Source: Amyelois transitella (lineage: Eukaryota > Arthropoda > Insecta > Lepidoptera > Pyralidae). From it: 64,000 nucleotides of DNA. A program made the translations under genes and the position numbers. Positions within the stretch are counted from its first letter, which is position 1; each line of letters begins with the position of its first letter. The notes beneath the pieces are model-generated. The model searched no databases. It worked only from the letters and a program-made list of their open reading frames with translations, and was not told the origin of the DNA. Below are positions 1,849 to 44,175 of this stretch, piece by piece. The DNA lies in the NCBI RefSeq assembly GCF_032362555.1, contig NC_083517.1, positions 7,646,001 through 7,710,000 of the forward strand, read 5' to 3'.

Positions 1849-4800
1849 TCAAACATTAAAAGCATGAACAATTCTCTGCCACTGTGATTCTGAAAAAATA
1901 AAACGTTTTTTTATACACAATGATAATTAATAATTTACTTAAGTACTTGTATTTACGTTTATTAATGATTACGTAAATACATAATATATATTGATATTTG
2001 TAAATTGACGTCCGATGAAAATGCTGCAGTGTAGTTTGTGCCGCCGCTTCTTCTACACATGCACTTTGGAAGCGGTAGTAGTTATAATTAGATTTATGTG
2101 ACGTCAATAAGTGATCCAATTTTGAAAATAAATCTATTCTATTCTATTATCAAGAAGAAAAACTGAACAAAAACTTGGGAAAAGAGCAATTGCTATAACA
2201 GAGCGAATGCTTTAAAGATGTCTATGATTATAAAAAAACTTTCCAACTCCTTTATAGAACTAACAATTTCGCCTGCCTGTCCGTCTGTCCGCCGAACTTA
2301 ATATAGTAAACCTATCCTACGTGTCAACAAAATTTCATCAAAATCGAACCGTTCATAAGTTATTATGTTGCAAACATACATAAAACAAACGCATTTTTGT
2401 CCCAAGTGTATTTGGTAGACAAACCTAATTCGTTTCGATCGCTCAGTCAACAAAATTACTTTCGCATTTATAAAACCTAAGTATTTCATAATATGAAATT
2501 ATTTCTCTATATACTATATCTCAGTACTATAATATATAGATAGATAAACAGTCTGTTTATTGCACCAGAAAAAAAGGAGTTGGAAAAAAACAGGTAAGTA
2601 ATGAGGTACAAAGGTGGACTACGAATAATACCCCACATGCAAGTCTTCACTAGGGAACTGTACTATATAGATTACCAAATTTCTGTAGGTATATATTGGA
2701 AATCCTACCTAAATAATTTAGCTTTTTTGATTCTGTTATGACTGTGTTTTAAATGTAAATTTTAGAAAAATACTTAATACTCTCCTGCATGTAAACTAAT
2801 CTATCTCTGCATTCAATCTTATCAAAATCTAAAAAATATACTAATTTTTTTATAGAATGTTTACAGATATCTGTACTGAATACTTACCACCATATTTTGG
2901 GATGTTCTTTAATAGCTGGTGAAGAAAAACTAAACAGATGACTGATACATATCCAAGGCTATACACACATGTCACAAAACACAGGGCTAAGCTGAAAATT
3001 ACCAAACATTTACATACTTGTGATGAGCACAAATATATGCTAAGTGCAGTCTTTAAAGGTGACTAAAAAATATCTGACTTAATTTTTATTCAAGTTCAAA
3101 CAGCTTAACATTCTAGTCTTGTGACTTTACATTTACCCTCCCTGGTTGGCTCAATGGAATTGAGATCCAGATTGGCAGGTTGCTAGACCATCTAACCTTA
3201 CTAAGAATCTCAATTAATTAAAGCCACACATTTTCAAATATTACTTATTGCACAAAACTCTGATTTATTTTACTATCACTATTGTATAATACACTTTTTC
3301 AAACAACAAATAAGCATGATGATATTCTAGTATGGATTTATAAAAAGCTGAAAGAACTTTGTAAAATACAACTTACTAAAATTCATTATAAACATCACTA
3401 CAATCTTCAGGCATTAGAATAGGACCATAAAATATATATGGTTGACAAATTGTTGTTAGTGTCAAATTGGTTCCATATAATAACGTTGCCAAAGTAAACA
3501 TATGCCCCAGTAGGAAATATCCATAATTTGGTTTAAGTACACAACAATCCCACCTGAAAGACAAATATTTAACATATTAATATTTTATGTAGCTATATAC
3601 ATCATATCATACAGACAAGTGACCATAAGAATGTATGAGGTGACAGAGTAGGTACCCATTAGAGTGCTGTATCTGTTCTTGACTTGATACAGTTAGGAAG
3701 TTCTAATGTGTACATATGTTACATACAGTGTTTTCAGTCAGTGGTGCTCTGTTATTGAGGGCCCTTTGATTAGAGGTATTTCTTTAAGCAACCACGTGCG
3801 CGATCGAAGCACACGTCTGATGATAATCTTATTTGTAGTTTGATTTTTTATTTCATTATAGCCCTAAGCTTTAATAAAAAGAACAGTAGTACTCATTGCT
3901 ATGAAATTTCTTGTTCAGTGCTAACTTTACAGCTAATAGATAAGTGTATGTGAACAGTCAACATGTGAAACAATGTACAAATATTGTTATCTCATGAGTG
4001 CCTACTGGAGTTACACATTTATTTTAAATGATTAGATGTTATGATAGCTTCCTTCAGGTAGTCCTTTCTTTTCCAAGGTCTGTAAAACTCATTTCAGGAA
4101 TTCAGGTTTGAAAACACAGTCAACAAATAGTCAAAATATTATACACTTACCATATTGAATGAAAATATCCCTCGCTCACCTCAATTTCACATATTTTGCA
4201 ATAATGTGAGTCTGAAGTTAACACTGGGCTGAAAAAATGGATAGTTTGAGTTACCCAAAATATTTATTTCAATATGTGCAAAGGAGATATTTAGTTTCCT
4301 TATTTCACATATGAATCACCCAGATAATCGCATATTTCTTTGATAAAATTATTCGACAAAAATAATTGGAAACACAAAATATACATATATTTTAAGATAG
4401 TGAAATAATAGGATTTTCCTTGGATATCCTAGAAGTAATGTAGGAAATAAGCACTTTACTTTTGTGCAACAAACATTACGAACTGGTGGTTAGGTTTCAA
4501 CTATTGACTGGTACCTATATAAAGCTCAGACAGGAATCCCTGTTTATAAAAGATAAAATGTTTGTCAAATATGGGTGACAATTTAAAACATAAAGCAATA
4601 AAAATAGTTTATTAGTTGACTTACCTATAGTCATTCCCCTTACATGTTCCAGTGGCCAGTTCAAAATCAGCAGTAGACTTCATTTTATAGAAGAAATAAC
4701 AGGTGAATGTGATCAAGGAGAGAAATACAACATTCTCATAATATGTTATTTCCCAAAAATCCATGACAATCATTTCAAAAATCAAAAACATATATAATCC

Positions 4801-5602
4801 TGATGATAAAGTCCAGGAATAAAAAAAGGGTGATCTGTAAAAAACGATACATACATACATAAAATCACGCCTCTTTCCCGGAGGGGTAGGCAGAGACTAC
4901 CTCTTTCCACTTGCCACAATCTATGCATACTTCCTTCACTTCATCCACATTCATAACTCTTCATGCAAGCTCGGTGGTTTCGGGTACTTTTGACCTGACT
5001 CTTTACCAGGACGTCCTTAATTTGATCAAGATACGTTTGTCTTCCCACTCTGACCTTTCTACACTCTCCTTGCATATCTGCTTAGTCAACCTGCTTTCAT
5101 TCATCCTCTCCACATGACCGAACCATCTTAACATACCCTTTTCTACATGTTCCTGTAACTACATGTTCATCTGTTCAAAGACTGAAAGGCCGCATTCAGG
5201 AAGCAGCTTATAATGGAAATAATTCAGATAGTGAAAGGTTGCTTGGTCATAACTTTCTCTTCGCTTATAGACCAGCATGGAAGCTTGCACTAAGTATATA
5301 CTTATATAGGTAAACTGACAAAGATATTATATGTAGAATCACCACATTATAGCTATAAATATTTTTTAAACATTTTGCCCATGTGAAAAACACTTTAAAT
5401 GTTACCTGTTCCTATGACGTGGTCTTGAAATAACGTATAAGGCTCCCATTCCTATAAATATCATCACAGTAAGTGTAACAGCTCGAGAAAGCGTTGCCAC
5501 CAACAACAAGATTGGTAAGATTATAAACGGTAATATTATATCAAGATCCATTTTCTTATTGGATTTGTTGTTGTTATACGGGAGTATTTCCTGAATTGTC
5601 AT
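1849..5602 (-). CDS. DHHC-family (ZDHHC24/23-like) four-pass membrane protein with degenerate catalytic motif
   Basis: Six exons in phase: 5602-5406, 4834-4625, 4228-4151, 3553-3377, 2991-2888 and, less surely, 1889-1849; about 268 aa. An alternative start is Met at 5551. The first two exons encode two hydrophobic segments near each end of the loop-free N-terminus; exons 4 and 5 encode two more, with an LTLTTIC stretch after the third segment as in ZDHHC23 and an NYGYF motif as in ZDHHC24. The family normally S-palmitoylates proteins in Golgi or ER membranes. Here the cysteine-rich domain reads CKICEIEVSEGYFHSIW then WDCCVLKPN, so DHHC has become YFHS and the nucleophilic Cys is Ser. Ligands of one zinc site are gone while those of the other remain. 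A pseudoenzyme is the likeliest reading. The last exon is supported only by a good acceptor, matching phase and a stop, and it gives a short C-terminus. Confidence 0.72.
1990..2147 (+). repeat. 3' tail of a CR1/L2/Jockey-type LINE
   Basis: This is nearly identical to the tail at 32404-32572, which directly follows the reverse transcriptase region at 30.5-32.2 kb. It shares the 'ctgcagtgtagtttgt' block, the 'ggaagcggtagtagtta' block and the terminal 'aaataaatctattctattc' repeat. It is a heavily 5'-truncated insertion between exons 5 and 6 of the DHHC-like gene. Confidence 0.75.
2255..2420. repeat. Probable LINE-derived 3' UTR debris
   Basis: The run 'tgcctgtccgtctgtccgcc' followed by a 'caaaatttcatcaaaatcg' phrase resembles the 3' UTR fragments seen elsewhere in the window near 28.9 kb and 50.8 kb. 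No coding part remains. The family cannot be named from this fragment. Confidence 0.4.
4846..5225 (-). repeat. RTE-like LINE 3' fragment plus SINE scrap in an intron
   Basis: 4846-5172 repeats, in the same orientation, the last ~320 bp of the LINE at 10575-13230, including the (ATAC)n tail and the end of the coding region, with several small deletions. A short SINE-like scrap follows at about 5175-5225. The insertion lies in intron 1 of the DHHC-like gene and on the same strand. Confidence 0.8.
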
Positions 5603-6356
5603 TATGTATTACATAAAATGTAACTTTCCGGCTCAAAACTTGCTTTGCATGATCCAATAAGTTGTTAACGATTCATGAATCTTTCTTTACACAATGTATG
5701 TTTTGATTTTTTTCATTCACCACAAAGTAAATACCTAGTTATCATACATACAGTAGCTAAATTTCGTTTTAAACAGCCTGGCGCAACTCTAAAGAAAAAA
5801 AGCTATTGTATGTAACAAACGGGAATTTGTTAGAGCTGCAACAAACTGTATGTATTCGGTACTGAGTAACGATGTGCGCTCTGGTACCGAGTAACGAAAC
5901 GTAACTCTCGAATATGTAGTATATGAGCGTTATTCGCACGATTTCGTTCCTCGCATTTATTGTATAATGGATTCATTTCCCGCAGATAAGTGTGCTTGAC
6001 AAGCACCAATTTACCTGCGTGAAATGCTTTTTGATTTGTTTAACGTCATGTTTTTATTTAATACGTCTAATTTTAGTTTAAGAACAAAAGATTCTGTTGT
6101 TTAAAATATGGTTTTATTTAATATGTCTCAATTCAGTTTAAGAACAAAAGATTTTGTTGTTTAAAATATGTTTTTGTTTAATATGTCTAATTTCAGTTTG
6201 AAAATAAAAGATTTTTGTTCTCGAAATGTTTTTGTCATTAAATAAGTTTGACAATGTTGCTTTTTCATTATAATTTAGAGATTCTGTCAATACTATTAAC
6301 TCAATACTTTATTTGCAGTTCGACACGCGTATGAAACTACAACATACGAATCGATT
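5603..6356. other. Intergenic, upstream of the DHHC-like gene
   Basis: No exon is seen. The first 150 bp should hold the promoter of the minus-strand DHHC-like gene, but I recognise no clear TATA or initiator. The right part holds a 60-bp tandem repeat listed separately. Confidence 0.5.
6045..6230. repeat. 60-bp tandem repeat, about 3 copies
   Basis: Units start near 6061, 6121 and 6181 and share 'agtttaagaacaaaagatt' and 'tttaatatgtct' blocks at an exact 60-bp period. The first two copies are the closest and the third has diverged at its end. There is no coding content. Confidence 0.85.
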
Positions 6357-7310: not shown

Positions 7311-8708
7311 TCACGCATATGCAATTCTGGACCTGGCGAGAGCCTCCCACCTTTGCCTGACCTGACAGGCAGAGCTGAAGGCGTTGTGATTGTCACTTAC
7401 CGCACTTCGGTCTGCCCGGCAGTTCAGGCACGATGGGACGGCTCCCGCCATCCAGCCTTGACACTCCGACCTCTGATGCTCCCCGCCGCAGTGGCTGCAC
7501 CTCTCTGCTGTCTCCTTGCAGTGTCTCCTGCCGTGGCCGTAGCCCAGGCACATCGAGCACTGGACCAGCGGAGAATAGTCCTCCGCCTGGACCCGCTGCA
7601 TGTCGATGCGCGCTGAGCCGGCCACGACCACTGCCTTCCACATCTTGGGAGGGACACTTAGGACTATGTGCTCCAACAGCGGGTTGCGGGCCTTCTTCCT
7701 AAATTTGAATTCTATGGCCATATCTTCCTCCTTTAAGTCCCCAAGTATCTCACTATTTTGTTTTACCAGTTTTTCTATAATTTCTTCATTTTTATTTTTC
7801 TTTATAACATTTTTTAGCACTATGAGGGGGTTTTTATTGTGTACATCTCTTGCCTGTAGCTTCCCTAAACTATTTATCCTCTTCTTAAGTTTCTCCCTTC
7901 CTTCTTCTGTCTTGCAGCTTATAATAAGCTTCCTATCCCTCGTCTTCCGTATCTTTTCTATTCTAACCCAATCCCCGCCCTCTCCCGCCACTTCCCTAAT
8001 TTGGTCCAGCACCTCGTCACCTGTTTCCATTCCTGCCTTGTCGTTGACAATAACGGAGTGGTAGGTGACGGGTGGTTCCTTCACATTGGCGACGACCTGC
8101 GAGTACGTTCGGGGCTGCGTGCCTGTGTCTGCTCCTGATTCGGTCCGATTTTTAAAAGCCTCCTTGAGATCCCTTAAGGTCTTTGAGTTCTCGTCAAGTC
8201 GATCGGTCAACATCTTCAGATGGCTCTTGATGTCCCCGATTTCCTCTTCTTCCTCAGGAGCAGGGGACGTCTGCGTTCTCACGCATGGATTTTGACCTGG
8301 TGTGAAATTTTTCAATTCCTGATAAATGGCCAGGTCACACACCAGGTCATCCACCGCTTTCAGCTTTTGGATTACGGAGTCCTTTGTCGTTCGCTTTAAT
8401 CGCAGCGCCGTTTCGACCTCGTTAATGGCGGCTTCCAGGAGGCCTCTGATGTTGCCGCCCAACATATCCCGATCGTCATCAGTCAAGATCTTCCTTCTGT
8501 TTTCTTCTCTTAGGAGCGGGGTTTTTGGGTGGTGTTGGATGAATTTACTCCTGGTTATGGGAGTAGCCCATTCCGCTGCAGGTATACTGGGAGGGGAGTC
8601 TGTGAGGGAGGAATCACTCGGCAGTTGAGTGGGAGAAAGCGTGTTGTTATCATAATAGGAGAGTGTCTTTTTAAAGGACACGGTCTTTGGCGTTGGGTTA
8701 AGAGTCAT
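7311..8708 (-). CDS. LINE ORF1 gag-like protein with three zinc knuckles
   Basis: An uninterrupted 465-aa ORF inside the element at 6371-9083. The N-terminal third is polar and low in complexity. A mixed-charge middle part (roughly 210-360) resembles the RNA-binding core of R1/I-group ORF1 proteins. Three cysteine-rich knuckles close the protein: residues 384-397 (C-x2-C-x4-H-x4-C), 404-416 (C-x2-C-x3-H-x4-C) and a looser one at 427-448. Such ORF1 proteins package LINE RNA into ribonucleoprotein particles. After the stop an overlapping frame (ATG in GCATATGCGTGA) opens for only about 19 codons, which may be the stub of a lost ORF2. The GC-rich coding composition differs from the surrounding AT-rich DNA. 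Confidence 0.85.
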   Translation of the reverse strand: MTLNPTPKTVSFKKTLSYYDNNTLSPTQLPSDSSLTDSPPSIPAAEWATPITRSKFIQHHPKTPLLREENRRKILTDDDRDMLGGNIRGLLEAAINEVETALRLKRTTKDSVIQKLKAVDDLVCDLAIYQELKNFTPGQNPCVRTQTSPAPEEEEEIGDIKSHLKMLTDRLDENSKTLRDLKEAFKNRTESGADTGTQPRTYSQVVANVKEPPVTYHSVIVNDKAGMETGDEVLDQIREVAGEGGDWVRIEKIRKTRDRKLIISCKTEEGREKLKKRINSLGKLQARDVHNKNPLIVLKNVIKKNKNEEIIEKLVKQNSEILGDLKEEDMAIEFKFRKKARNPLLEHIVLSVPPKMWKAVVVAGSARIDMQRVQAEDYSPLVQCSMCLGYGHGRRHCKETAERCSHCGGEHQRSECQGWMAGAVPSCLNCRADRSAVSDNHNAFSSACQVRQRWEALARSRIAYA

Positions 8709-9097
8709 GTTTTAAAAAGTAAATTTGTATAAGTTGTAAAAAATGCAGTATATCATAAAATATGATTAAGTAAAAAACAGAGGTCACGATTTAAAACAAT
8801 TAAGAGAAAAGTATTTACAGCTTCTTATCCTAGGGTTGCACGTGTTCTTATGCCTGTTGATCCGGATCCCGACGAATCCAAGAGAATCCACTCAATCCGT
8901 CAAATTTCGAATAATTCTTGGAGCCCAGGTAAGTATGTCGTGACACTGAACACTGTTAAACACTGATTTTCACAATTTTTATTTTTCACAATTTTATTTG
9001 TCACAGATTTTTAATTTTTCACAATTTTTATTCGCGGAGCTCGTCGGAGCACGTCTGCACTCCACGACGGCTCGAAGCAGACTCCGTTTCGTTGGGT

Positions 9098-10574: not shown

Positions 10575-13230
10575 CATACATACATACATACATACATAAA
10601 CTTACGCCTCTTTCCCGGAGGGGTAGGCAGAGACTACCTCTTTCCACTTGCCACGATCCCTGCATACTTCCTTTGCTTCATCCACATTCATAACTCTCTT
10701 CATGCAAGCTCGGCGGTTTCGGGCACTTTTGACCTGACCCTTCACCAGGACGTCCTTAATTTGATCAAGGTATGTTCGTCTAGGTCTTCCCACCCCGACC
10801 TTTCCCTCCACACTCTCCTTGTATATCTGCTTAGTCAACCTGTTTTCATTCATCCTCTCCACATGACCGAACCATCTCAACATACCCTTTTCTATTCCTG
10901 TAACTACATCTTCTTTCACATCACAACATTCCCTTATCACGCTGTTCCTTATCCGGTCACTCAATTTCACACCCAACATACTCCTTAACGCTCTCATTTC
11001 CACTGCATTTATTCTGCTTTCGTGCTTCTTTTGCCATACCCAACTTTCACTCCCATACATTAATGTCGGGACCAACACGCCCCTGTGCACAGCCAGTCGA
11101 GCCTTTTTGGATAGTTTCTGACTGCTCATAAAGGCATGCAAAGCTCCATTCACCATGTTCCCCGCGTTCACTCTCCTTTCAATATCACTATCACACTTGC
11201 CATCTGATGTAAACTTTGATCCTAGATATACAAACTCTTTCACTTGCTCAACTTTTTCTCCTCCAATCAAAATATTACATGCTGTCATTTCTTTCTCCAT
11301 TTCAAAAACCAGTGTTTTAGTTTAACTTACGTTCACTTTCATTCCTTTCTCTTTTAAAGCTTCATGCATACAGTTTACCATCTCCTGTAACTCCTCCGCT
11401 GATGACGCCAGTATAACCTGATCGTCGGCATAGAGCAGACATTTGACGAGTAATTCATTCATCCTTAATCCACTTTCAGACTCTTTCAAATCTGTCAAAC
11501 AACTATCCATAAATAGGTTGAACAGCCACGGTGACGCAACACATCCCTGCCTAACACCTTTCTCAATCTTAAACCACTCAGTGTGCGCTCCGTTTATCCT
11601 GACACAAGCACTCGAATCCTCATATAAGGATTTCAGTGCTCGTATCAAGAGACTGCTCACCCCATGCATAGAAAGTGCTGACCACAATTCATTCCTCTCA
11701 ACTCTGTCATAGGCCTTTTCCAAATCCACGAATGTGCAATAGACTTTTTGACTCTTGGCCAAAAACTTTTCGGCTATGCACCGCAAAGAAAAGACCTGAT
11801 CAGTACATCCCATTCCCTTTCGAAATCCCGCTTGAGCATCCCATATTTTGTCATCAGTTTCATTCCTGACTCTATTAATCAATACCTTAGCATTCAATTT
11901 GCCGACGACGCAGGCTTATACCACGATAATTTTTGCAGTCCAGTTGTGACCCTTTTCCTTTGTAAAGTGGCACAATAACAGCCTTACACCAATCTTTTGG
12001 TACTCGGCCGCTTCTACAACACAAATTGAAAAGGCAGTACAACTGTCTAGCTACGACGCCTTTTCCTGCTTTAAGCATCTCGACCGACACTCTGTCATAC
12101 CCGGCAGCCTTACCCGCTTTCATACTCTTAAGTGCTTCCACAATTTCAAACATTTCAATTTCGCCTTCCATCTCATTCTCTTTTTCTTCGCTATAGCAGA
12201 ACTCTTTCTTATTTTCTTCCTTTTTTCAAATAAACTCTCAAAATAGTCCTTCCATATCTTTAGCACACATTCTTCTCCTTTCACAACGCTACCATCCTGG
12301 CATCTGATCCTAGTCAGCTCTCTGGTTATAGTTTTTCCTCGGGCTGACCTTACGGATTTCCAGAATACTTTCAGATTTGACTGAAAGTCTTCTGATAGCC
12401 TTTTATCAAAATCCTCTTTATACTCTTCTTTCTTTCTAATCACAGCTTTCTTAACCAAATCTTTCATTTTTTTTATATTCCTTACGTGCTTCATTCACAT
12501 CCTCATCTATAACCTCTTGCATTCTTAAGTTAGCTTTTGCTGCTAACAAATCCAGCCATGCTTTCTTCTTTAATCGCACAAGTTCTTGCACATCTTTACT
12601 CATCCACGCATTTTTGTGATTTTTCCCTTTCCTTCTTCTACTTACACCACACACTTCAACAGCTACTTTCACAATTCTTTCTTTAAATTCCTTCCATCCA
12701 TCTTCAATATTGCTCCTCTCATCTAAATCTTCAATTTCATCCTTCAGTCTATTAATATACATCTTACCTACATCCATATCTTGCAAATTTTCTACTTTCA
12801 CTCTTTCCAAAGCGCTGGTTTGCTCCCTTACCCTGTGCCGCCAGCGATTGAAGATACCCCTTATCCGGGATATCACCAGTAAATGGTCCGAGTCAATGCC
12901 AGCACCGCGATATGCACGGGTATCCAGCACTTTGTTCTTCAATCTTTCATCTACAATCACAAAGTCTATCATACTTTTTAAAATACCTTCCACTCTTGTA
13001 TAGGTGTGGATCTCTTTATGTTGAAACATTGAGTTCGACACAAAAAGATCCCACTCTAGACAAATTTCTAATACACTTCTTCCATTATCATTCACCTTTT
13101 CGTCACCAAACGCACCAAGCACCTTTTCATATCCATCACGCTTTACACCCACCCATCCATTAAAATCACCTAACATAATAATCTTCTCATTTGGCTTGGT
13201 AACTTTCAATACTTCTCTTACACTATTCCA
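10575..13230 (-). mobile_element. RTE-like LINE, 5'-truncated, with target-site duplication
   Basis: A 10-bp duplication (GAACTCACAA) flanks the element at 10565-10574 and 13231-13240. The minus-strand element starts inside the endonuclease domain and ends with its reading frame running almost to the end, leaving a very short 3' UTR and a (TATG)n tail at 10575-10600. A minimal 3' UTR ending in short tandem repeats is typical of the RTE clade. Shorter 3' fragments of the same family occur at about 4.9, 13.8, 17.9, 22.2, 27.5, 33.8, 37.2 and 38.7 kb. Confidence 0.85.
10602..13209 (-). pseudogene. LINE endonuclease-reverse transcriptase, broken by frameshifts
   Basis: Five overlapping frames together make the C-terminal part of one polyprotein. 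13209-12451 carries the back half of an apurinic-type endonuclease (IIMLGDFNGWVG, SMIDFVIVDERL and a DSDHLLV motif). 12494-12120 is a linker. 12171-11887 and 11897-11322 carry the reverse transcriptase with GFRKGMGCTDQ, DLEKAYDRV, GVRQGC and the catalytic YADD. 11300-10602 is the C-terminal segment with SESWVW and WFGHVERM. Frame changes occur near 12470, 12140 and 11905, and an in-frame TAA lies near 11322. No functional protein can be made. The closest family is RTE by domain order and tail. Confidence 0.85.
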
Positions 13231-13527
13231 GAACTCACAAACGTTAACTTATAACGTTAAATATTATGAGCATTTAAATAAACGACATGTGCGCTCTGAT
13301 TGGATGAATACATCACGTGTTTCTTGGAAGAGGAGCAGGAGCTGCCCGCGGGTTTGTTCTCATCACAATAATTTTTACCTACAAAGGCTACAAGTTACTT
13401 ATTTTTCAAAATAATAATATTATCTCTTATACTGTTAACATTAAAATTAAACAAGTTTCGTTTATGGAATCTATCATTTTTATAAGATTGTTCGTTGTAT
13501 TCTTATTTTCGCTTCAATAAAATCAAG

Positions 13528-17058: not shown

Positions 17059-19979
17059 CTAGAACTTAAATTGTTCTTTCATTTTATCAGCAATCATCTC
17101 TGCAATAGCCAATGATGATGTAGCACCTGGTGAAGGTGCATTACGGCAGTGCAGCACTCGACTTCCGATAGCACCCGAGGATGGGTTGGAATCAAATACA
17201 AAGTCTTCTACCAATGTACCTAAAACAGTCATATGTATATTTTTATTTACATGGAAAAATAAAACATGCGACTTATCAGCTCTGATAATGAAACATTTTA
17301 CATTAGCTGTTACCACCTAAGTATACTAAAATGTATTATGGGATATAAACTTTATAATATACTAGCTGTTGCCCGCAGCTTCGTTCCCGGACATTGCTGT
17401 ATTACGCAAATCCTATGAAAACAGTCTTTTTGCTGGATGAAAAGTATATGGTACGCTTGTTTTTCTAAGTACAGACTACAGTTCTAAAGGATTTAAACGT
17501 GCTTTAGATTACTTTTGCCTGCAAATTCGTACACACAATGTTTATTTCCTTAGATAGTGTTCACTACACAAAGAATTAACATGCCAAATTAACGATATTT
17601 ATAATGAAATAGCATTTCCCACAGTTTTACTCGGTACATTATTGTTCATAGACAATCCTGCGGGAATATAATTTATTTTAAAACAAATATATGCTCATGG
17701 CACCTTCGGATAGTGTAGTTATAAAATGGGGAAAAATATTTTTCCATCAGTTTCGTAGATTTTGAAATTATTCATTACAAAGATACTACAAATCTTTTAT
17801 CTTTATTAATAGCGCAGATTAATTATGATGATTTTGATAGAGTCCTTGAGTGAAGAATGAAACAAAAGTAGAACTTATGTAGATATTGTGGCAAGTGAGA
17901 AGATGCTGTCTCTGCCTAGCCCTTCAAAAAAAAATGTGAATAAAATCACTGAATATCAATAATCATATGTCATATGGTTTGTGCTAGCTATCCCAAATCA
18001 AACTCCATTAAACCATTGAAACTCGGACCACACTATACAACACTTTTTTGTATCACTACTCAGACAATGCTACCATTTATAGCAATTTATTCAATCATTT
18101 CAGTCTTAGGCTGACTTCCTTGGAGTATGATTTGATTGAATTTAATTGATTATCAATGACATCAGCATCATTTGTTTTGTTTATTGAAATATTTGTCGTT
18201 TGTGTCATTTATCATCATCAATATAATATAAATTGATATGTATATAATATGAATTATAATCATAACAGTTAATCAGTCATTTAGGGAATTCAAATCTTAG
18301 TTGACTAGTTAATCTTTATAAAAGATTAAATCAGTTATATTTAGAATAGTGTAGGTGTTTAAAAGATTAGTATTTACCATCTTTTGTCATTGCCTGTGCC
18401 CTGACTCCTGCGGGTCCTTTCTCCACATCTGCTACAGATAAATTTTCAATATACCTCTGTATCTGCATTACTTGTAGTGGTGTTATAGCTGATCGTATCA
18501 TTTCCTTGAACCCAAATCCTGCATATTTTAATGCCATTTTCCGGAAACCAGAAAAACCGCATATCTCTCTCAGTTCTGTAGTGTTGATATCATTCCATCT
18601 GAAATATTGTTTGTTAAGTGTCATTGGCTTGTTAAGAGTCAAGGCCATTTTGATATATCAAATATTAAACATCATTGTTATCTATTTATATACATACACA
18701 AGCAATCCAGATAAATAATCAAAATTCAACAATATGATAAAGTTAAATATCTGTATACCTTTAAATGACTTTGACAGAAACTATTAAAATATAATTTCTT
18801 ATTATATGACATCATTTAATGGTTATAAAGTCATAAAATGTAAAAATAAACTTAAAATAAATTTATTCATACCAAATTATTGGTACTTAATAATTATCAT
18901 AGCAATATAATCTAGGTTAAAGTAAGTTTTTTATCATAATCACCTATATCCTTCTTTACAAAATGCTAAAATAGCATTTGGACCAACAATAACACGGCCA
19001 TCTATTCTAGGGGTCACATGAACACCCAAAAATGGGAATCTTGGATCTGGTACTGGATAAATATTGGCTTTTGCTATATTACTTTTGTTCTGTACAACAT
19101 ATAAATATTCTCCTCTAAAAGGTATAATTTTTGGCTCCTCCGGGCAGCCAGTCAAAGTTGCAATAGTATCAGAATGAAGCCCACAGCATGTAAGAACATA
19201 TTTTGCATGGACAGTGTCTCCTTTACTGTTTATTATCATAACAGGGTAATCTGCACTTTCTGCTTCAGCAAATTTATTCACTTCATAATTCAAGTAAGCT
19301 TTGCCACCTTTATCTTTGAAATCTTCTACATAAGATCTGGTGACCTCACCCCAATTCACAATGCCAGTGTTTGGTGACCACAGTGCCTGGACACCCTTAC
19401 AATTTGGTTCAACTTCACGCAATTCCTTTGCATCTAAAATTGTTAAATCTTTAACTCCATTCTTTATCCCACGATCATATAAATCTAATAATCTGGGAAC
19501 TTCAGATCTATCAGTAGCTACAATCAGTTTTCCACACTTGGAATATTTTATGCCTTTTTCATCTAAATATTTGTAAGACAAATTTAGGCCTTTCACACAT
19601 AATTTAGCTTTCAATGTCCCTGGTTTATAATAAATGCCAGCATGAATAACGCCACTGTTATTTCCACTTTGATGGTAAGCAAATCGATCTTCTTTTTCAA
19701 CTAAAGCTATTTTCAATTGTGGATGTCTATATACTAGTTCTCTGGCAGACGCTGATCCCACTATACCACCTCCAATAACAACAATGTCATAATTTTCTTT
19801 TCTTATTGTACTATACCTGTAAAATATTTATATAATAAAAAAGTTAGTCATATTTTTCAACACAATAGTGACCATTTAATGCTATTAAAAATAACATACC
19901 TGGGCGAGTTGTACTTAAATTTCGAAGGCCCACTCAAGGTCAACAATGAGATCTTTTTCCATTTCATTAGTGTAGCCAT
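17059..19979 (-). CDS. L2HGDH: L-2-hydroxyglutarate dehydrogenase, mitochondrial
   Basis: Four exons in phase: 19979-19900, 19816-18944, 18598-18378 and 17219-17059; 444 aa, close to the family's usual ~460. The enzyme is an FAD-linked mitochondrial dehydrogenase that oxidises L-2-hydroxyglutarate to 2-oxoglutarate, a metabolite-repair reaction. Exon 1 gives a basic, Ser-rich leader suited to mitochondrial import. The FAD-binding GGGIVG lies at residues 42-47 after the YDIVVI strand. [36 protein letters not shown], the [20 protein letters not shown] block, GPAGVRAQA and the C-terminal [20 protein letters not shown] are all hallmark stretches of this family. All introns are GT-AG. It is divergent from the BTB-FLYWCH gene and probably shares the DRE-rich region upstream. 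Confidence 0.95.
17363..17945. repeat. Retroelement debris in L2HGDH intron 3
   Basis: About 17363-17410 begins with 'actagctgttgcccgcagct', a phrase like the LINE-related debris near 28.9 kb. About 17870-17945 (plus) is a degraded RTE-like LINE 3' end ('gtggcaag', 'tctctgcctagccct'). Neither affects splice sites. Confidence 0.5.
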
Positions 19980-29400: not shown

Positions 29401-32400
29401 AACACAGGTATATCATATTAAGTTAACCATATTAAATCATATAAAAAATTTTAATAATGAAATTAAATTTGAATACACATAAATTAAAAACAACAAAAAT
29501 AATATTTTAAAAATTTTGTCAATAAAAGTTTTGTCCGTCAGATCTTATATTTAATACAATAATTAAGTTAATCACTTTCGTCAGTGTCAGTGTTATTGGT
29601 ATTAAACCACTGGTCACTCAAATTTTCACAATACATATATTAGTAGTGCTCGTGCAATGGTTGGCCAGTTGTCAAAATAAGGGTCAAAATCAGTGTTGGC
29701 GCTACGAAGTGCATTGAGGTGGTTTAACGGTCGAACTAGTGGCGACATCGCGCGGGATACCGTGTGCCCTTCGTCTGGGTAGAATAATTTAGGGGGTCTA
29801 CTACGGCCACGCCTATCCACTGGAATCTCAAGCTCATCAGAGACGAACAATACACACAATAAGTTGTGTAATAGGAGACAATCTATCGATCCTTTCAACA
29901 CCTTAAGACAGACAGTTATTTGCTGCACCATTCTACGTACTTCTAGGGAGTTGTACCCTAAATGACCAAGCAAGAACTTAGTGAAAAATGAACTCAATAT
30001 TAAGTAATATCTAAACAAATTATGTTTGTACAGTATGCTTAAGTAGTTTTATTCAAAGCACCTACTTCAAATACTTACCACCGAATTGAAAGGATTTCTT
30101 TGAGCCTTTCTTAGGTAATTCTAAGTAAAGATGCCGCATTTTGAAGACAGCTGCTAGATAGGCACTTTTATAATTTTTGTTATATTCCAGGCTCAAAGCT
30201 TAATAAACGTGATTATGAAATTCCGAGATGAGCAAAGACGCATCATGTACACGAAGGAACCGCTCGATTACGGGGCATATAATTCAATAAACATCAATGT
30301 TATTAACGTAAGTAAAATAAATTAAGAAATAATAACGTTCAACCTATCTTGACACTTTAATTTTGCTACATTTTCTATAGCTAATCACATTTTTTATACA
30401 GGGTGGAAGTGTTGCAAACGTGATTCCTAAATCAATTACAATAATGGTCGATATCAGGTTGGCTCTAACAACAGATGCTGATGAACTTTTAGCTTTGGTA
30501 AGTAATTAACCATTTGTCTTATTTTTTATCAATTGTGTTGACCAAGGGATATTTCCAAATTTAATGAAGTATAGTAAACTAATTCCATTATTCAAGAAAG
30601 GTGAAAAATCAGATCCTGGTAATTATAGACCAATCTCAATTTTACCAATTTTGAGCAAGGTGTTCGAGAGAATCATGCTTAATCAAATGCAGCGTTTCTT
30701 TAAGTCTAATAAATTATTTCATAGTCAGCAATACGGCTTTACTGAGGGGAAATGTACAACAGATGCAGGTGTGGCTCTTGTCACTCATATTCTCAAGGCA
30801 TGGGAAAACTTACAGGATGCCATCGGAGTGTTTTGCGATCTGACCAAAGCATTTGATTGCGTAGATCATAGAACTCTTCTGCTCAAGCTCGCTCATTACG
30901 GGTTCGATACTGCTGCCGTTGAACTAATTAAATCATATCTTAGTGATAGATTACAGACGGTAGATTTAAATAATACAAAATCGAAAGGAGCGACGGTAAA
31001 AATTGGGGTACCGCAAGGTTCCATTTTGGGACCTTTTCTCTTTCTGATATATATCAACGACCTGCCTTGCATGATTGAGAAACAGACTGGCATCGTGTTG
31101 TTTGCAGATGATACGTCACTAATTTTTAAAATGAACCGCCGTAGCGAAATCAGTGATTATGTGAATAGCACTTTAGCCGCCATTTCTAACTGGTTTACAA
31201 TCAACAACTTACTGTTAAATGCAAATAAGACCCAATGCATTAAGTTTACACTTCCCAATGTGCGGCAGGCAAATGTGGATATTAGTATAAGTAGTAAAAG
31301 ATTAGTGCCGTGTGGCTCCCGGCACCAATACAAAAAAGAATAGGACCACTCCATCTCTTTCCCATGGATGTCGTAAAAGGCGACTAAGGGATAGGCTTAC
31401 AAACTTGGGATTCTTTTTAGGCGATGGGCTAGCAACCTGTCACTAGTTGAATCTCAATTCTATCGTTAAGCCAAATAGCTGAACGTGGCCATTCAGTCTT
31501 TTCAAGACTGTTGGCTCTGTCTACCCCGCAAGGGATATAGACGTGACCATATGTATGTATGTATGTAGTAAAAGATTAGATTTTGTTGATAATACTACTT
31601 TCTTAGCAATAACATTAGATTCAAATTTGAAATGGCATGCTCACATTTTAAAACTTTCTAAAAGGCTTAGTTCTGCAGCATACGCTATTCGTCGTATTAG
31701 GCATTTGACGGATGTGGCAACTGCTAAGCTAGTATATTTTAGTTATTTTCATAGTTTAATGTCATATGGTCTACTGCTTTGGGGATCAGCAGCAGACATA
31801 CAAACTATTTTCATTTTACAAAAAAGGGCAATTCGATATATCTACGGTCTTAAACAAAGAGATTCCCTTAGAGATTTTTTCAAAAACCTAAATATTTTAA
31901 CTTTGCCCTCCCAATACATATTCGATAACATCATGCATGTTAGGAAAAACTTAGACTCTTTCAAAAAAGGAGGTGAATGTACTAGTAGATCACTGCGGAA
32001 CAATTACAAGTTGTCGATCCCAGCACATCGGCTGGCTAAGGTAGGGAAATCATTTCTGATTAATGGTATAAGATTTTATAATAAATTACCAAAAAGTGTT
32101 CTTGAAATGAATGATAGAAAATTCAAAAAGTATATTAAAGTTGAGCTTTGTAGGAAAGCCTATTACAGCACGGATGATTATATTAATGATAAACATGTGT
32201 GGCCCGAGCTGGACATAATGGCCTCTTAAATGCTTGTGTATTTTTGACATGATCTTGACATAATTTGTACAGTATGTACATATTTTATTTGATATTTATT
32301 TTATTTAACGAAATATTCGTATTGACATAATCAGTTCTACATTCATACATGTTTTTTAATGTAGACAATGTGCATTCGTCCACGATTTAAATTTAAGAGA

Positions 32401-42081: not shown

Positions 42082-44175
42082 AACTGCACCTTATTTCACA
42101 TTCTTTAACCGCAAAATGTTTTGCAGCTAACATGAAGGCTCGGCTGAAGTTGTGTTAATTTATGACTGTTTTAGAGAATTAAGGAAAAGTACCAGTTTTA
42201 AAGCAGTCAAACATATTTAAAAGACAACATCTATTTATTTTTTGTCCGGTATTATTATTTATTAGATTTTTTTAAAATTACATAATAAATGAAAGCAAAC
42301 CTGATTAATGACTCTAATTTTATTGTTATAAAAACTATGTATTAGTGTTTTAAGTCGTAAATATGTACCTACATCTAAAATTCGAAAAAAAGTTAAGATC
42401 TTCAAAACAAGGGGAGAAAATAAATTTTTTTTACAATACTGTGAGCTTTGACACAATAAAATACTAAACGGTTTACGCTGCAAATCCTGATCACTCCAGA
42501 ATTCATTTGTTCGTTAAAAGCGTGACGAGAGTAATCGAGCGCGAGCGAGCAATGTCCTTCAAATAACGAAAGGACAGATGGGGGCTTATTCTTTTGCAAC
42601 ATTTACTTTATGGTTTTTGCCTGTAGGAATTGGAATACGCGCATAAATACATATCGTCTAAATCCCTTGCAGGAAAGACAAAGTTTTGAAAACACTGAAA
42701 GGCCACTTTCAGCTGGAATATGGTCTTATACTATTCCGATATTTCACGGTAGCGATACCACTCAACTCTTATACGAATATGTGGTAATAGACGACAGTAC
42801 CATTTGAACTACTAATAAAATGTTTGACTACTTATAAGACTTACGACTAATGTTGTTTATAATTTTTATTTTACACAAAATAACTCAATTTTTTCTCAAC
42901 ATACATTATCAACATCCTCCTGGCATCAGTTCCGGCTACGTCCTCACTTCTGGAGATGTGGCTTAACCATACTTTATAACAGAAATAAATACTTAGATAA
43001 TTTTCCGATATGAAGTGTCAGTTTATAATCTCCATATTTGTGCCTATTCAAACAGAGGATGCGGCTGAGGCTTGCGAAAAAGTCCTTTTAAAAATGTTGC
43101 GGCACGTTCGCGAGAAGGCACCCATTACGGCAAAGTGGCCACTGTTGATTTAAAGATTTCCACGCAAACGTGAGACAACATTTTTCTTTAAGTGGCGATT
43201 TCGTTTGGGAAACGATAACTTAATGACCCTCATTATATGAATTTAGGGGTGGCTGTTATTTATGCAGGAATGTAAAACATTTCTGCGTAAAATTATCCCC
43301 AACTTATATTATAAATGCGAAAGTATATATATTTCTTTGTTTGTTGTCACTTCACGCGTTTAATAGAACCAGACTTCTAGAAATTTTGCGTATGCAATAG
43401 GTACCTTTATATCTGGAGAAGGGCATATAAAACTTTTGATACCGGTTAAAACTATAGTTTTCGTGGGATTTGCAAAAAAAAACTGTATTTTTTGAAGAAA
43501 TTTTCTATCCACAGTAATGTCCTAGCTACAATATCAAGTAACGAATCATTCGATCATCAGGCGACTGTATCGACTTTTACCGCTATTGAATTTCGGTGAA
43601 AATTTGTTAATATTCATCTTAGCAAATATGGCACCAGATAGCCGCGGGTGGTGCAGGCGCTAATTGAAATAAATTGTCATGGCGGCTGTCGGCGCACATA
43701 AATCAGAGCGCCGGCGGCGGCAGCTAAGTGCCCGATCCCAGCGCTCGCACTTTCTAACGATTAGACATGGCAAAGTGATTGCTAGTATGGTAGGTATTCA
43801 TTGACCAGGTGTACAAACATTGTATAGTGTAGAAAATGCCAATTTAAATTATATTTACGTCTGTTTTTATTCTACTGAATACATGGTAGTACTCAAAATA
43901 AATATTAACAGACATACATAATTTTATCATCAATCTTATAACCTTAACTCTTGCCATGCTAAAACAAACATAAGAGTTTACTATGTAAGAATGTAAGAGA
44001 CTAATATCTCGTGAATGCATGGGTTCGAAGAGAATAGGATAAGAAGCCAAAGCACATCGTACAATTTAGTTAATGGATTGATTATTTTTCTTAAAGGGCG
44101 TTTTGCTGGTTCCAGCATCCATTTTACCTATAGCAAAATTGTATGTCAGTTTTAGTCATTAATAATTGTCAATCA

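Follow-up and report, generated by a model that had tools for sequence, protein, structure and literature searches.

The window, the whole stretch of 64,000 nt of DNA that was analyzed, carries on its minus strand a multi-exon gene that is a homologue of the DHHC palmitoyltransferase family and in which the motif that names the family reads YFHS. We consider it reasonably probable (at about 60%) that this gene is an insect descendant of ZDHHC23 that has turned into a pseudoenzyme. A wider proposal, that the only ZDHHC23 gene of this insect lineage is a conserved one-zinc DHHC pseudoenzyme with the role of a membrane scaffold, is put forward tentatively and with some doubt.

Gene structure

Exons A to E join in phase to give 238 open codons, which a tentative exon F extends to 268. 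The features of the gene and of the intron that separates its first two exons are as follows:

5406..5551, minus strand: exon A, with an ATG in good context (AAAATGG), a GT donor (AACAG/gtaacatt) and a phase that suits exon B
4847..5145, strand not given: 3'-end fragment of a LINE in three matching pieces, inside the intron between exons A and B
4625..4834, minus strand: exon B, with two hydrophobic segments, a linker and AG/GT borders; it carries positions 0 (Gly, codon 4638-4636) and 3 (Tyr, codon 4629-4627) of zinc site 1, both lost ligands
4151..4228, minus strand: exon C, with C14 (4200-4198), C17 (4191-4189), E20 and YFHS at the place of DHHC, including the retained H27 (4161-4159) and S28 (4158-4156), which replaces the catalytic Cys
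3377..3553, minus strand: exon D, with the last zinc ligand C34 (3543-3541), an NYxxF motif, TM5 and the YGxxLTLxTIC loop common to ZDHHC23
2888..2991, minus strand: exon E, with TM6 and the donor TGGTG/gtaagtat
2650..2741, minus strand: tentative terminal exon F, in phase, with a TAG stop at 2652-2650
2556..2561, minus strand: AATAAA polyadenylation-like signal, 89 nt past the tentative stop

All five introns are of the GT-AG type, and none of the stops, frameshifts or broken splice borders by which a pseudogene would be recognized occurs in exons A to E as joined. The initial annotation had described the exons as open and spliceable, which holds, and had placed them at 2888..4834. The exons of that span (B to E) are real, but the span is too short, since it missed the 5' exon at 5551-5406 and the tentative 3' exon at 2741-2650. 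In sequence of intron-like base composition, six stretches as long as these (counting exon F) would all be open with a probability of about 3e-10, an overly favorable figure given that the exons were picked as open. The codon positions of exons A to E show little compositional contrast with introns.

Exon A encodes two strong hydrophobic segments, and a second in-frame ATG lies upstream of it at 5602. Its similarity to the N-terminus of human ZDHHC23, a sequence that in all our comparisons was written out by hand rather than taken from a database, is weak (30 of 1000 shuffles scored as well). The protein has six hydrophobic stretches in all, three of which exceed the threshold of 1.6 and three of which lie at 1.19-1.46. 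The earlier claim that membrane segments are retained agrees with the count of six and must be qualified for the three below threshold; one comparably weak segment occurs in each of the intact paralogue L007 (1.34) and human ZDHHC23 (1.29).

The 3' end of the gene is less well defined. Exon F is assigned to it tentatively, and only from its phase, its stop and the adjacent polyadenylation signal. A by-eye reading of this exon as a conserved C-terminal motif was rejected on the basis of shuffles: its peptide had no significant similarity to three DHHC tails (607, 241 and 606 of 1000 shuffles scored as well), and extension with the end of exon E gave none (780 of 1000). Nor did the exon rank in the top ten of 55 candidate 3' exons. 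An alternative tail exon at about 1889 met an early stop and was discarded. TTxE is a conserved C-terminal motif of the family. PaCCT is also named as a conserved C-terminal motif (PMC5364179). Since the tentative C-terminal exon has no significant similarity to a DHHC tail, the tail that carries TTxE and PaCCT may have been lost.

The LINE fragment stops about 12 nt before the acceptor of exon B, the polypyrimidine tract and AG of which are intact. Its pieces share 92-95% identity (5-8% divergence) with parts of another copy in the window, at 10584-10894. The fragment may have shifted the branch point, with recent harm perhaps done to exon A or to the entire gene.

Other elements surround the gene. 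Upstream of it, three tandem 60-nt units occupy 6048-6227, with the second 90% and the third 78% identical to the first. By eye, a 466-codon frame with CCHC-type Cys-His knuckles (7314-8711, minus strand) is gag-like and probably belongs to a LINE, and frames resembling endonuclease and reverse transcriptase at 10605-13248 (minus strand) and 30510-32226 (plus strand) indicate further LINEs. A 295-codon frame at 18943-19827 (minus strand) resembles, again by eye, L-2-hydroxyglutarate dehydrogenase.

Residue losses in the zinc domain

The ligands of zinc site 1 (positions 0, 3, 13 and 20) read G, Y, Y and E and are all lost, those of zinc site 2 (14, 17, 27 and 34) read C, C, H and C and are all retained, and the catalytic D25, H26 and C28 are replaced with Y, F and S. 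Each of these residues reads as the initial annotation had it. If losses were random, the exact split in which seven of the 11 residues are lost and these four are kept would have a chance of 1 in 330, a figure made post hoc. Measured against the definition of a DHHC palmitoyltransferase given in PMC5359973 (a DHHC motif, six conserved cysteines in the domain and four to six transmembrane segments), the gene lacks the motif and the full set of cysteines; three of the six zinc cysteines (C14, C17 and C34) are kept, and C34 forms part of a Cys-Cys pair at positions 33-34. In the family, placement of the active site is aided by the pair of zincs, and the Cys is positioned by the Asp and the histidines (PMC8107437). 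Conserved CCHC ligands bind the zincs, which are not directly involved in catalysis (PMC8227752). As far as is known, a protein that has lost Cys, Asp and His could not use the acyl-enzyme route.

Register of the alignment

The assignment of the surviving site depends on the register of the alignment. Both zinc sites of the DHHC domain share the spacing C-x2-C-x9-H-x6-C, and because of this equal spacing a lone surviving site could in principle be site 1. We scored the window protein at each ungapped offset against the zinc domains of seven of the 11 DHHC loci detected in its genome, over a span that covered the whole domain and TM5 (the TM3 of the family). The best offset sets YFHS under DHHC with a score of 36.0, against -4.0 for the next best and a mean of -58.4 (sd 14.7) for all offsets. 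The offset that scored -4.0 sets NYGY under DHHC (CVLKPNYGY under CVLKxDHHC) and would leave site 1 as the survivor. Taken alone, the residues upstream of DHHC favor this rival register (16.6 versus 9.7), whereas from four residues past the start of DHHC onward the YFHS register scores 23.3 and its rival falls outside the top four. The comparison over the whole domain leads us to reject the register that keeps site 1.

Other profiles give the same pairing. A profile of the seven loci matches the protein at 25.2 bits in the YFHS register. The Pfam DHHC model (PF01529), matched from its position 17 onward, gives it 28.5 bits, marginally short of the cut-off of 28.7; L007 reaches 84.2 bits from position 3. 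Among PDB chains, zebrafish DHHC15 (6bms) pairs with the protein in the YFHS register at a weak E of 0.099, with an unrelated lectin chain placed better at 0.081; 6bms was the only DHHC chain matched, and that match alone proves nothing. The gapless register proposed earlier is consequently supported by the DHHC domains of the insect's own genome, by Pfam and, weakly, by the PDB.

An exon that escaped the gene model might instead restore a normal domain, a condition under which the initial annotation would have fallen and for which it pointed to the interval 4151-3553. A six-frame scan of the window revealed no convincing second DHHC-like piece in introns. The best two pieces were exons D and C, which are themselves weak when scanned singly (E 0.11 and 0.17), followed by a plus-strand piece at 43922-43993 (E 0.38). 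Such a scan is sensitive enough for an intact DHHC exon; an exon that had diverged as far as C and D would escape it. In addition, the alignment has no gap for a missing exon to fill, and we reject one that restores DHHC. Searches of the window with Rfam at gathering thresholds and of the 238-residue protein with NCBIfam gave no match, and the four pattern matches in a scan of viral contigs included no relative.

Kinship with ZDHHC23

The protein matches human ZDHHC23 with an E of 1e-10 (single comparison) and 32% identity over 111 aa, and no gap is needed between the zinc domain and the end of YGxxLTLxTIC. Over the stretch that begins at the NxxxF motif and ends with TM6, the score is 95 (z 11.64), a value reached in 0 of 2000 shuffles. 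When five paralogues (those of the 11 loci readable in one frame) were compared with ZDHHC23 over the same region, z ranged from -1.09 to 0.48. Most of the signal comes from the piece in exon D, which alone gives a z of 8.29; the piece in exon E gives 2.35, with 69 of 2000 shuffles scoring as well. In comparison, the E between the window protein and L007 is only 0.010. The TM5-TM6 region of ZDHHC23, used as a genome-wide query with two candidates scored, failed to bring up the window gene even with E values up to 10 allowed, so that kinship rests on the direct comparison. We conclude that the gene probably descends from ZDHHC23 rather than being ZDHHC24-like. Of the two relatives named jointly in the initial annotation, ZDHHC23 stands on its z of 11.64, and ZDHHC24 as nearest kin is set aside given the E of 0.010 with L007 and the z values of the paralogues.

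The sole match of the TM5-TM6 query elsewhere in the genome was L033 (C6:4635231-4635434, minus strand, E 0.09, 25% identity), a 68-codon stretch with two internal stops and an ungapped alignment of 65 residues (score 76). Its comparison with the window protein gave nothing beyond a score of 30, and its 3.2 kb contain neither DHHC nor HCxxC. We take this match, the best of a whole genome, to be a chance one in preference to a relic of another ZDHHC23 copy. Other candidate relatives were rejected by what they read as, L031 being by eye an amine-type GPCR and L019 and L032 broken frames.

Other DHHC genes of the genome

A Pfam DHHC search of the 327 Mb genome gave 12 matches in 11 loci besides the window gene, two neighboring matches on C5 being taken as one gene. 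DHHC is present in all 11 loci. The ligands of both zinc sites occur in the same frame in L001-L008, and not all of site 1 is in view in L009-L011. Used as a genome query, the window protein matched its own locus in six exon pieces and gave a single weak hit elsewhere (E 1.4). The human ZDHHC23 sequence from zinc domain to tail brought up those 11 loci again, together with two weak hits at other places, and the window gene was not listed. By reading, the ZDHHC23 loop was seen in none of the 11 loci, in some of which the exon ends early and the region is out of view. The genome search works exon by exon and has little power for relatives of this kind: a diverged second ZDHHC23 split by introns could escape it, but an intact zinc-domain exon should not, as pieces of 40-50 residues were found.

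The domain lies in single open frames of 275-377 codons in L005, L006 and L007 (and L001). In the first three (on C6, C4 and C1, respectively) it shares one long intronless open frame with the membrane segments that follow, which suggests retrocopies that stayed active. The check for an intact ZDHHC24 paralogue, advised when the locus was annotated, finds L005 and L007, both of which bear DHHC and which we take, by eye, to be ZDHHC24-like.

Probable maintenance of the reading frame and alternative explanations

We simulated neutral drift of the present 804-base frame with a transition weight of 2 (2000 runs each) and assumed an indel rate of 10% of the substitution rate, with 80% of indels breaking the frame. 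With substitutions alone the frame was open in 44.7% of runs at d = 0.02, 15.9% at d = 0.05 and 2.95% at d = 0.1; with indels these values fell to 12.3%, 0.75% and 0 of 2000, and at d = 0.3 no run of 2000 was open either way. The seven lost codons hold at least 12 base changes over 21 sites (0.57 per site), and since these codons were chosen as changed and possibly evolved fast under selection, the simulation shows selection on the frame and not the date of the catalytic loss. Neutral change on this scale would disrupt the frame, and most of the change would therefore have arisen while the frame was being kept. The frame has probably outlived catalysis. Selection for a non-catalytic role, rather than random decay, had been proposed from the outset, with adaptor, competitor and chaperone as candidate roles; the open frame supports this in part, in that it argues for selection after catalysis was lost.

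A gene that died recently would also have an open frame. Catalysis would have been lost earlier under relaxed or changed selection, with the disuse too recent for stops and perhaps following the LINE insertion. The fragment does adjoin the acceptor of exon B, codon positions contrast weakly, and short neutral phases (d = 0.02 to 0.05) leave an appreciable fraction of simulated frames open, much reduced when indels are allowed. We nevertheless regard recent death as unlikely, because the change in the lost codons, at least 0.57 per site, exceeds a short neutral phase, so that upkeep of the frame during the catalytic loss is still needed, and because the acceptor retains its polypyrimidine tract and AG. 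Less likely again is an acyltransferase that works by an unusual route, for example via a membrane-near cysteine such as the extra C33 of the Cys-Cys pair. Yeast offers models for it: Swf1 and Pfa4 keep partial activity when the catalytic Cys is replaced (PMC8107437), Akr1 is active without most zinc ligands (PMC8107437, PMC8227752), and a table in PMC10816013 includes yeast transferases without a DHHC motif in which the site of S-acylation is a Cys near a transmembrane segment. However, the window protein has also lost the Asp and the first His, and mutation of the first His in Erf2 or of Asp-His in Akr2 abolishes activity (PMC8107437). C33 moreover occurs in the DHHC-bearing L007 and is hence no special replacement. 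It is very improbable that the gene model or the register is wrong, with an unseen exon that gives a normal DHHC domain or with site 1 as the survivor. The equal spacing of the sites and the scores upstream of DHHC lean that way; they are outweighed by the score over the whole domain, by the gapless fit of ZDHHC23 and by the lack of a convincing second DHHC-like piece in the window.

If the gene is a ZDHHC23 descendant turned pseudoenzyme, site 2 would still bind zinc and hold the TM5-proximal half of the domain. The protein would keep a folded cytosolic patch at the membrane and form no acyl-enzyme intermediate. It might then act by binding, for instance by holding a former client of ZDHHC23 or by partnering an active DHHC enzyme, a weaker step in which the choice of partner is a guess. 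In mammals ZDHHC23 plays the major part in acylating a loop of the BK channel (PMC6690687), and ZDHHC23/NIDD is named among the PDZ ligands of nNOS (PMC5350102). With an acylation target and a PDZ partner on record in mammals, a binding role exists to be kept.

Significance and comparison with known systems

Pseudoenzymes are well known among kinases. Our searches of the open-access literature turned up no animal case of a DHHC pseudoenzyme or of a DHHC protein without the motif. At least one genome survey of the DHHC family dropped matches that lacked essential residues (PMC5359973), and motif-less DHHC proteins can thus be filtered out before they are noticed. Flies have several DHHC genes without clear mammalian orthologues, and nine of their DHHC genes are testis-specific (PMC9374236), which gives lineage-specific change of the family in insects a precedent. 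A retained dead ZDHHC23 would make it possible to ask which jobs of the family need binding and not acylation. Were the only ZDHHC23 of the lineage indeed a one-zinc scaffold pseudoenzyme, the binding function of the family could outlive its chemistry.

Three comparisons place the gene among known systems. The ZDHHC24-like paralogues L005 and L007 belong to the same DHHC family and share the register of the zinc domain, but they have all zinc ligands and DHHC, and their TM5-TM6 regions match ZDHHC23 no better than shuffles do. Yeast Akr1 is likewise a family member with an incomplete set of zinc ligands; it differs in having DHYC, Cys included, and in being active (PMC8107437, PMC8227752). The closest likeness is with mammalian ZDHHC23 (NIDD). 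Lacking DHHC and zinc site 1, and with a shorter linker before the zinc domain and an unrecognizable tail, the window gene still has in common with it the second half of the zinc domain and the TM5-loop-TM6 region with its YGxxLTLxTIC sequence.
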